DNA of 36,380 nucleotides from Psychromonas sp. (GTDB taxonomy: Bacteria > Pseudomonadota > Gammaproteobacteria > Enterobacterales > Psychromonadaceae). Location: contig JAOFNL010000003.1 in the NCBI GenBank assembly GCA_028041985.1, positions 1 to 36,380 of the forward strand. Direction: 5' to 3'. A program made the translations under genes and the position numbers. Positions 3,193-9,719 of this stretch are shown piece after piece. Under the pieces are notes generated by a model that was not told where the DNA came from, did not search any database, and worked only from the letters and a program-made list of their open reading frames with translations. How positions within the stretch are numbered: the first letter of the stretch is position 1; each line of letters begins with the position of its first letter.

Positions 3193-3210
3193 TATTACAT
3201 GACTATTGGG

Positions 3211-3432
3211 ACACAGGATTCATCGTATTAACTTTGATTGAGACAGAAGCAATAAGAGTGTTCTTAATTTATATCGAGGCACAGAATTCATCGTATTAAC
3301 TTTGATTGAGACAGGAGCAATAAAAGTGGTCTTAATCTCTATCGGGGCGCAGGATTCATCGTATTAACTTTGATTGAGACAGGAGCAATAAAAGTGGTCT
3401 TAATCTCTATCGGGGCGCAGGATTCATCCTGC
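3211..3432. repeat. 68-bp tandem repeat, about 3.2 units, in the tusA/galE convergent intergenic region
   Basis: ATTCATC recurs at 3218, 3286, 3354 and 3422 (exact 68-bp spacing). Units 2 and 3 are nearly identical. The array ends in the palindrome GCAGGATTCATCCTGC (3417-3432). Confidence 0.95.
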
Positions 3433-6520: not shown

Positions 6521-7081
6521 ATGTTTAATCAGTTACTTAACATTGCAGCATCAACTGTGTGGCAAAAGAATATAACAACTCAAAAATGTACTCACACAAT
6601 GCTATCTTGGCTATTAGATGAAAGTTCATTAACTAATAAATTAGAGTCTCAATGTAAAATATTTAACGTTGACGTTAAACAGCAAGTAACCACCAATAAT
6701 ACCGATTCACCTCTTTCACAATATTTCCCTTTTCCAGAAAAAATACTAGTACGAGAAGTCCTTTTATACTGTGATGGAGTCCCCACTGTTTTTGCTCAAA
6801 CTGAAATACCTTATAGTACATTGTCAGATACCCAAGAAAAGTTAGCAGAACTTGGCAGTGTATCTCTAGGCAAAGTATTATTTGAAAACAAAACATTACA
6901 ACGCGGCCCCATTGAAATAGCCGAGTTCATGACCTCATCTGGCATGCATCAATTTAGTGAGTCATTACAGCAACCTTGCCACCATTCATTATGGGCTAGG
7001 CGATCACTTTTTTATATTGAAAATAAGCCGTTATTAGTCAGTGAAGTATTTTTGCCTGCCTCAGGAATTTACAAATCATGA
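6521..7081 (+). CDS. ubiC: Chorismate--pyruvate lyase
   Basis: 186 aa with [13 protein letters not shown]..., [34 protein letters not shown]; overlaps ubiA by 4 bp. Confidence 0.93.
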
Positions 7082-7944
7082 GTTACTTAACCCAAAGTAA
7101 ACGCCAAGCTTTATTAGAATTGATGCGTGTAGATAAACCGATCGGTACACTCTTGCTTTTATGGCCAACATTATGGGCATTATGGGTTGCCGCTAAAGGT
7201 TTTCCAAGTATTAGCGTATTGATCGTTTTCTGTTTAGGTGTATTTTTCATGCGCAGTGCAGGTTGTGTAATTAATGATTTTGCGGACAGAAAAGTAGATG
7301 GGTTTGTAACTCGTACAAAAAATCGGCCTTTACCTTCTGGTAGAGCCACCAGCAAAGAAGCGATTATCTTATTTTTAAGCCTAGCGTTATGTTCTTTTTT
7401 ATTAGTACTCACGCAAAATAAGTTAACCATTCAACTTTCATTTATTGGTTTATTACTCGCATTTATGTACCCATTTATGAAACGCTTTACTCATTTACCA
7501 CAATTTGTTCTAGGCGTAGCATTCAGTTGGTCTATTCCAATGGCTTATGCAGCTCAAGCTAATATGCTATCCACTACTGTTTGGCTATTATTTCTGGCTA
7601 ACATCACTTGGACAGTTGCCTATGACACAATGTATGCAATGGTGGATAAAGAAGATGATTTGAAAATTGGTATTAAATCTACCGCTATTTTGTTTGGTAA
7701 ACATGACAAACTAACCATTGGATTATTACAACTAACCACTATCACTCTTCTCATAGGAGTTGGTTTGTTAGAGCAATTATCGTGGATTTATTATCTTGCT
7801 TTGATTGTGGCAGGTCTATTATTTTTACTACAACAAAAACAAATTCAAGAGAGAGATAAAAAGGCGTGTTTTAAAGCATTTTTAGATAACAACTATGTAG
7901 GATTAGTTGTTTTTATTGGTTTCTTTTTAGCGTACCTTTTCTAA
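7078..7944 (+). CDS. ubiA: 4-hydroxybenzoate octaprenyltransferase
   Basis: 288 aa with [70 protein letters not shown]. Confidence 0.97.
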
Positions 7945-7983: not shown

Positions 7984-8246
7984 GGTGGCTTAAAAGCAAC
8001 GCCCCAAATTCGAGATACCTTTAACTTGGGGTGCACTACTTCTTTTGATTTAGGTAGTCGCTAAAACAATGATGCTAATGGATAAATTTTCCATTAGCAT
8101 CGGTGGCTTAAAAGCCACGCCCCAAGTTCGAGATACCTTTAACTTGGGGTGCACTACTTCTTTTGATTTAGGTAGTCGCTAAAACAATGATGTTAATGGA
8201 TAAATTTTCCATTAACATCGGTGGCTTAAAAGTCACGTCCCAAAAT
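7984..8246. repeat. 118-bp tandem repeat (two full units plus a partial third) composed of several stem-loops
   Basis: GGTGGCTTAAAAG at 7984, 8102 and 8220 (exact 118-bp spacing). The two full units differ at only four positions. Inverted repeats at 8071-8101 and 8189-8219 (12-bp stems) and 8120-8149 (9-bp stem). Confidence 0.97.
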
Positions 8247-8255
8247 ACAATATAG

Positions 8256-9719
8256 CTAACAACCCGGGCCACACTCCATACATTCGCTGATCATAGCCGA
8301 GCCTAGTTTCAATTTAGCATTCAAATCTCGTAATGCAGTTCTCACACCTTCTTCAATCACGGGATGGTAAAAAGGCATATCTAACATTTGTGAAATGGTC
8401 ATTCTATTTTGATGTGCCCAAGCTAACAAATGCGCAAGATGCTCTGCTTGTGGACCAATAATTTCAGCACCTAAGAAACGACCTGTTCCTTGTTCACCAT
8501 AAAGATTTAATAAACCTTTATTCTTTAACATGACACGACTACGACCTTGGTTTTCAAAAGAAACACTACCCGTTTCAAAACAACCACAGCCAGCAAATTT
8601 TTCTGATACTTGTTTATAACTTAAGCCAACCATCGCTAATTGTGGATCAGTAAAGACAGCCGCGATAGATGAGCGACGTAAACCAACACGTATATTAGGG
8701 TAAACGCCTGCGTTACTACCTGCTATTTTCCCCTGATCAGCGGCTTCATGTAATAACGGAATCTGATTACTTGCATCACCAGCAATGAATATATTAGCAA
8801 CAGATGTTTGCATTGTGTAAGGGTCTGCAATGGGTACACCACGACCATCACTTTCTAATTCAATATTTTCTAACCCTAAATTATCAACATTTGGACGACG
8901 ACCTGTTGCAGCTAATACATATTCAACTTCTTTAACTTGTTCTACGCCTTGTTTATCAACGTAAGTGATTTCAACTAGCTCACCTTTACGCTGCATATTT
9001 TTTACCTTGGCATCTGCATCTAAATAAAATTCGTCACTAAACGCTTTCTCTGCATAGGCCATCACTTCAGGGTCGGTAAAAGGACCAACTTGTCCACCCA
9101 TACCAAACATTAATACTTCAACACCTAAACGATGTAACGATTGTCCAAGCTCCAAACCAATCACGCCAGGTCCAAATACTGCCACAGATTTAGGTAAATC
9201 AGTCCAATCAAAAACATCATCATTAACGACTAATTTATCACCAAGATCATTCCACACAGGTGGGTAACTTGGACGAGATCCTGTTGCGATAACAATTCGC
9301 TCTGCATTCACTAAGGTATGATCATCTATCTGTAATTGTGTTTCTGATACAAATGTCGCTTTACCAATTAATTTATCTTCAACTTTAATTTCATCGACAG
9401 CTTCAACCACAAAACCAACAAAACGGTCACGTTCATCACGTACACGTTGCATCACTTTTTTGCCATCAACACGTACGTCGCCATCCACAAATACGCCAAA
9501 AGGTTCTGTATGAGCAGCACTATGTGCGGCTTCTGCAGCAGCAATCAATAACTTACTTGGCATACATCCAACGCGAGCACAGGTTGTTCCAAATTTTCCG
9601 CCTTCAATTAACACGACGGAATCTGTTTTTTCTTTGGCAGCTCGGTAGGCTGCGAGTCCTGCTGTTCCACCACCGATAACGGCAACTTGTACATTAATCT
9701 GCTTCATATTGTTCCCCAT
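8256..9719 (-). CDS. Dihydrolipoyl dehydrogenase-like pyridine nucleotide-disulfide oxidoreductase with Cys-rich C-terminus
   Basis: 487 aa with GGGTAGLAAYRAA, redox motif GTTCARVGCMPSK, ATGSRPSYPP, IFIAGDA, FYHPVIEEG; ends in SECMECGPGC. Confidence 0.93.
   Translation of the reverse strand: MGNNMKQINVQVAVIGGGTAGLAAYRAAKEKTDSVVLIEGGKFGTTCARVGCMPSKLLIAAAEAAHSAAHTEPFGVFVDGDVRVDGKKVMQRVRDERDRFVGFVVEAVDEIKVEDKLIGKATFVSETQLQIDDHTLVNAERIVIATGSRPSYPPVWNDLGDKLVVNDDVFDWTDLPKSVAVFGPGVIGLELGQSLHRLGVEVLMFGMGGQVGPFTDPEVMAYAEKAFSDEFYLDADAKVKNMQRKGELVEITYVDKQGVEQVKEVEYVLAATGRRPNVDNLGLENIELESDGRGVPIADPYTMQTSVANIFIAGDASNQIPLLHEAADQGKIAGSNAGVYPNIRVGLRRSSIAAVFTDPQLAMVGLSYKQVSEKFAGCGCFETGSVSFENQGRSRVMLKNKGLLNLYGEQGTGRFLGAEIIGPQAEHLAHLLAWAHQNRMTISQMLDMPFYHPVIEEGVRTALRDLNAKLKLGSAMISECMECGPGC

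Follow-up and report, generated by a model that had tools for sequence, protein, structure and literature searches.

The array between ubiA and the lpd-like gene

In the window, by which we mean the whole 36,380-nucleotide stretch of Psychromonas sp. DNA analysed here, the spacer between the convergent ubiA (7078-7944, plus strand) and lpd-like (8256-9719, minus strand) genes is filled by a tandem array at 7984-8244. Two programs detected it as two 118-bp units followed by the 25-bp start of a third (Table 1), confirming the layout given in the first-pass annotation, and the individual stems named there are all present in the sequence. The two full units differ at four positions, A7998/C8116, A8008/G8126, C8075/T8193 and G8097/A8215, the latter two of which are partners within one 12-bp stem, as had been described; it was from this paired change that selection for a folded structure had been proposed. 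The first two differences each lie in a stem that pairs in unit 2 but is left open in unit 1, which is therefore decayed at two of its stems. The predicted fold has 41 pairs, and four differences placed at random hit both partners of a pair in 3.6% of trials (P about 0.036), so that the compensatory pair by itself is weak evidence and does not prove selection. Because a change with this chance of arising at random is accompanied by two differences that break stems of unit 1, the local evidence for structural selection is mixed. Compared with shuffled sequences, unit 2 has a much lower predicted folding energy on either strand (z -7.9 and -8.2), and unit 1 a less extreme one (z -5.2).

Table 1. 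Positions of the array elements and of a second array in the window
Feature	Position	Strand	Description
Tandem unit 1	7984..8101	.	118 bp
Tandem unit 2	8102..8219	.	118 bp; 97% identity to unit 1
Partial third unit	8220..8244	.	25 bp, REP module only; ends 11 bp before the lpd-like stop codon
REP of unit 1	7985..8005	-	GGGGC foot 8001-8005; stem 7995-8000/7985-7990, mismatched once (in the predicted fold A7998 faces G7987); loop TTTA
REP of unit 2, intact	8103..8123	-	GGGGC foot 8119-8123; stem 8113-8118/8103-8108; loop TTTA 8109-8112
REP of third unit, decayed	8221..8241	-	foot GGGAC; one stem mismatch
Long-range stem, unit 1 equivalent	8001-8031
Long-range stem, unit 2	8119..8149	.	CCCCAAGTT/AACTTGGGG; two REP feet in inverted orientation, extended by 5 further complementary bases
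Putative inverted partner REP remnant, unit 1 equivalent	8028-8061
Putative inverted partner REP remnant, unit 2	8146..8179	+	GGGG retained; stem replaced by ACTAC..GTAGT
12-bp stem with paired change, unit 1	8071..8101	-
12-bp stem with paired change, unit 2	8189..8219	-	followed by ATTGTTTTAG on the minus strand; terminator-like
Second window array, same REP family	3203..3432	+	68 bp x 3.3; between convergent genes

Each unit opens with a copy of a small hairpin module, referred to below as a REP, which is intact in unit 2 only; the array may therefore be inert. Comparison with the other arrays described below suggests that the segment listed as a partner remnant is an inverted REP that has lost its hairpin. 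The 12-bp stem is of another kind. On the minus strand a U-rich stretch follows the stem, which has a terminator score in both units and occurs nowhere else in the 2.0-Mb draft genome. Among the genomes compared, the array is specific to this one: it is absent from the ubiA-lpd spacer of the relatives, which is short and contains different plain terminators or none. The simplest reading is that the 12-bp stem is not a REP and looks like an lpd-side terminator that was caught in the duplicated segment. Downstream of ubiA at loci L187 (genome G013), L189 (G008) and L185 (G021) lie quite different palindromic repeat families, as if the ubiA 3' end were often colonised by palindromic repeats.

A family of hairpins with a GGGGC foot

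The first-pass annotation had suggested that the 118-bp unit might belong to an undescribed family of structured repeats. Searching the draft genome (2.0 Mb in 231 contigs, 51% complete) with the whole unit returned no other full copy, and as a dispersed family the 118-bp unit was rejected: outside the array only its first 22-27 bp recur, the remainder being unique to the locus. A family does exist, as a 22-bp hairpin module, and these first 22-27 bp are found in many copies, both singly and in tandem arrays of other periods, namely 75/74 bp on contig C8, 92 bp on C9, 81/80 bp on C25, 109/108 and 72/71 bp on C151 and 80 bp on C202, while a reversed control pattern had 0 matches in the genome. 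Several arrays lie at contig ends, and the copy numbers are lower bounds. In most arrays the order is hairpin GTGGCTTAAAAGCCAC, GCCCC, spacer, GGGGC, hairpin GCAGGATTCATCCTGC and linker, so that reading from either side gives GGGGC and then a 6-bp stem closed by a 4-nt loop, in two inverted copies; the spacer and linker sequences are private to each array. The second array in the window has more decayed REPs, and its last copy, GGGGCGCAGGATTCATCCTGC, is intact at 3412-3432.

The REP module is a 21-nt single-strand motif composed of a GGGGC foot, a predicted 6-bp stem and a TTNA loop, usually arranged in inverted pairs (BIME). We collected 50 distinct REPs from this and related genomes by foot and loop, pairing not being required, and in this set 91.3% of cells were paired compared with 66.1% after shuffling; the covariation score was 0.699 against 0.235 shuffled, and at most 0.126 with slid partners. 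At the level of sequence, then, family-wide covariation shows that the REP stems are maintained; the paired change sits outside them, in the locus-specific 12-bp stem. When the foot was kept constant and the loop allowed to vary, 15 different fully paired stem types were recovered and 97 of 98 loops were TTNA, the third base being free. When instead stem type and loop were kept constant and the foot could vary, the stem was preceded by GGGGC in 97 cases and by GGGAC in 15, and GT[AG]G was never found directly at the stem. In genome G007 (L140-L148), where no Y1 gene was found, the REPs have a variant foot, GGGAC, which reads GTGGCTTAAAAGCCACGTC on the opposite strand.

How do these elements compare with REPs as they have been defined? 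The 21-bp hairpin, with 41 strict copies in the 2.0-Mb draft, falls within the usual range of a 20-40 bp palindrome present in tens to hundreds of extragenic copies; most REP-rich relatives contain 30-99 strict copies and G012 contains 13, with the control near 0. The arrays of this genome and of Psychromonas sp. RZ22 (G002) alternate two hairpins, as expected of BIMEs, in which REPs alternate and are often in tandem; the 7984-8244 array itself has a degenerate partner REP. The tetranucleotide GT[AG]G 5' to the hairpin, which defines the described REPs (PMC2817692, PMC3733652, PMC6006769), is replaced here by another foot, and because of this difference we do not file the family in the GTAG superfamily: its working is REP-like and it is associated with a RAYT, but its tag is another one.

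A Y1 transposase gene among the REPs of relatives

The GGGGC REP pattern is dense in G002, a genome identified as Psychromonas sp. RZ22 from the matching spacing of its arrays, and the only Y1_Tnp gene of that genome sits between REP arrays. It encodes a 179-aa HUH protein (Pfam Y1_Tnp, E 2e-11) with a predicted fold of mean pLDDT 85, for which the closest solved structure is 4er8, the E. coli RAYT bound to REP (E 5e-7); the HUH motif and the tyrosine are invariant across the homologues. The protein scores 56.7 bits in the NCBIfam REP_Tyr_transpos model, below the equivalog cut-off of 80. Taken together, sequence and predicted fold argue for a RAYT (TnpA_REP), with a Y1 HUH fold, the tyrosine and a position close to the REP transposases. 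Homologues at about 60% identity are present in seven more Psychromonas genomes (G005, G009, G012, G014, G018, G020 and G022), in each case with nearby REPs that share foot and loop and mostly have other stems, for example GTGGAC/GTCCAC in G005 and GTGGGC/GCCCAC in G022. In G002, G005, G022, G012 and others the gene is flanked by two inverted cognate REPs, the arrangement of a REPtron. In G009, G012, G014, G018 and G020 many stems have one mismatch, and in the flanks of their RAYT genes a T-T mismatch at stem pair 3 recurs in many REPs (GCTGGC..GCCTGC).

The strict REP pattern occurs in 13-86 copies in the eight RAYT genomes and in 0-4 copies in the others, except for our draft (41) and G019 (99). 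Leaving our draft aside, all eight genomes with the Psychromonas-specific RAYT are REP-rich compared with one of the 15 without it (hypergeometric P 1.8e-5, treating genomes as independent of phylogeny). The co-occurrence is not strict because G019, with its 99 GGGGC REPs, has no RAYT that we could find, and thus contains an orphan REP population; REPtrons have been lost in many E. coli strains (PMC3733652). In our own draft, which is 51% complete, family, protein and profile searches found no RAYT. More distant RAYTs in G013, G015, G016 and G021 (about 42-46% identity) were excluded from the family, there being no GGGGC REPs nearby nor any matching the pattern in their genomes. Beyond the genus, a relative at E 1e-20 or better turned up in a single sampled genome of the order, and this too has hairpins on its flanks, with foot GGAGC. 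At L204 (G119) hairpins with a GGAGC foot, 7-bp stems and 3-nt loops lie on both sides of a distant RAYT, which belongs to another family. A search of the available literature returned nothing relevant on Psychromonas with RAYT or REP.

A probable RAYT/REP system and its possible working

We consider it very probable that the repeat represents a short array of BIME type, made up of REPs from a Psychromonas family, and that this family belongs to a RAYT/REP system in which GGGGC takes the place of the GT[AG]G foot, because the module recurs, its stems covary, its loops are TTNA and a RAYT gene is flanked by such REPs in eight relatives. Of the identities that had been offered for the element, the REP/BIME-like one was thus the right guess. 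In such a system the RAYT would bind the hairpin in single-stranded DNA, on the lagging strand or in a cruciform, the GGGG foot would serve it as guide, and a nick beside the foot would be made through the tyrosine; such nicking might spread or recombine REP pairs. The 118-bp units would then have arisen when a REP pair and the neighbouring 12-bp lpd-side terminator hairpin were duplicated locally in tandem, and any use by the host at this locus, in terminating or protecting the 3' ends of both convergent transcripts, would be secondary. Since it is the features of a single-stranded DNA substrate that are conserved, the functional form is probably DNA and not RNA.

The alternative that the array is a structured RNA, a small RNA or 3'-UTR element that selection maintains at the transcript level and whose gene was tandemly duplicated, draws on the strong RNA folding of both strands, the terminator-like 12-bp stem and U-rich tail for the lpd-side transcript, and the compensatory pair in that stem. 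Yet the window has no Rfam match at gathering scores and no promoter-like site was found; the REP module is the only part that recurs, on either strand and in contexts unrelated to each other, and its conserved foot, TTNA loop and stem are features of a RAYT substrate. With plain and different terminators in the spacer of the relatives, where the array is absent, we regard an RNA as very improbable, and the small RNA that had been proposed finds no support. The paired change in the 12-bp stem may reflect either selection or a single template-switch event, between which two copies, giving no polarity, cannot decide. Template switching (quasipalindrome correction) can produce paired changes in one event (PMC8794818), and structure-breaking and compensatory variants are both present within arrays, such as that on C25; it remains a good explanation for the locus-specific stem. 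Extended to the whole array, so that paired change and perfect stems both arose free of selection and the array is a passive duplication, it is possible, if somewhat unlikely, and leaves the invariant foot, the TTNA loop and the link to a transposase gene unexplained. It competes with selection for the 12-bp paired change and is compatible with the REP identity.

A further scenario would have BIMEs kept by the host, as binding sites for gyrase or as protection of transcript ends, with the RAYT being only their origin. Both arrays in the window lie between convergent genes, as do two REP clusters out of the four in the stretch of G002, and E. coli BIME-2 binds gyrase (PMC2817692); against this, the present array is specific to its own genome among those compared and is partly decayed, and we find the scenario doubtful. 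Returning to the RAYT/REP reading, the E. coli REP/BIME system with TnpA_REP (yafM; 4er8) likewise groups its extragenic palindromes, as inverted pairs and in tandem clusters, around a gene for a Y1 HUH transposase, but its foot is GTAG and its stem long and bulged, compared with the GGGGC, six pairs and TTNA loop of Psychromonas, and the two proteins are about 15% identical in structural alignment. The group 3 REPtron of Marinomonas sp. MWYL1 also has a short stem, and a TTTA loop in which SELEX and mutants showed loop positions T12, T13 and A15 to be essential and position 14 to be free (PMC8266576); this loop rule is the TTNA rule seen across Psychromonas species. The Marinomonas foot, however, is GTAG, 2 nt from a 5-bp stem, whereas GGGGC stands directly at a 6-bp stem. 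RAYT subclass 2.4 / group 4 (PMC6006769) shares the NH[IFV]H motif and a tyrosine motif near YIxNNP, and its 'double foot' REPs, GT[AG]G...C[TC]AC, resemble the Psychromonas GTGGCT/AGCCAC hairpin; unlike these, other REPs of the Psychromonas family (GCAGGA, GCGGAC, GAGGCT) are not double-foot, W[DEA] stands in place of WQ, and the close clade has YIKNNA. TIRtrons, too, have Y1 transposase genes flanked by GGGG-containing repeats, of the form GGGGWSAS, but most of these are terminal inverted repeats, which have no relation to REPs (PMC3733652), and the Psychromonas GGGGCGNN does not match them.

Whether Psychromonas has a distinct RAYT lineage, in which a GGGG(C) guide replaces GT[AG]G and alters the choice of nick site while TTNA is kept and the stems diverge by species with the enzyme, we judge to be evenly poised. 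By the Marinomonas guide rule, a CC nick site would be expected for such a guide. The GGGGC foot would offer a test of whether the tetranucleotide is the true guide that sets the nick site. The locus also illustrates how a striking compensatory change in a single repeat can be mistaken for the mark of an RNA, when the element that recurs is an adjacent DNA hairpin module. Across the genus, about ten genomes with different stems and the same foot and loop form a natural series that allows the code linking a REP transposase to its hairpin to be deduced from sequence and put to the test.
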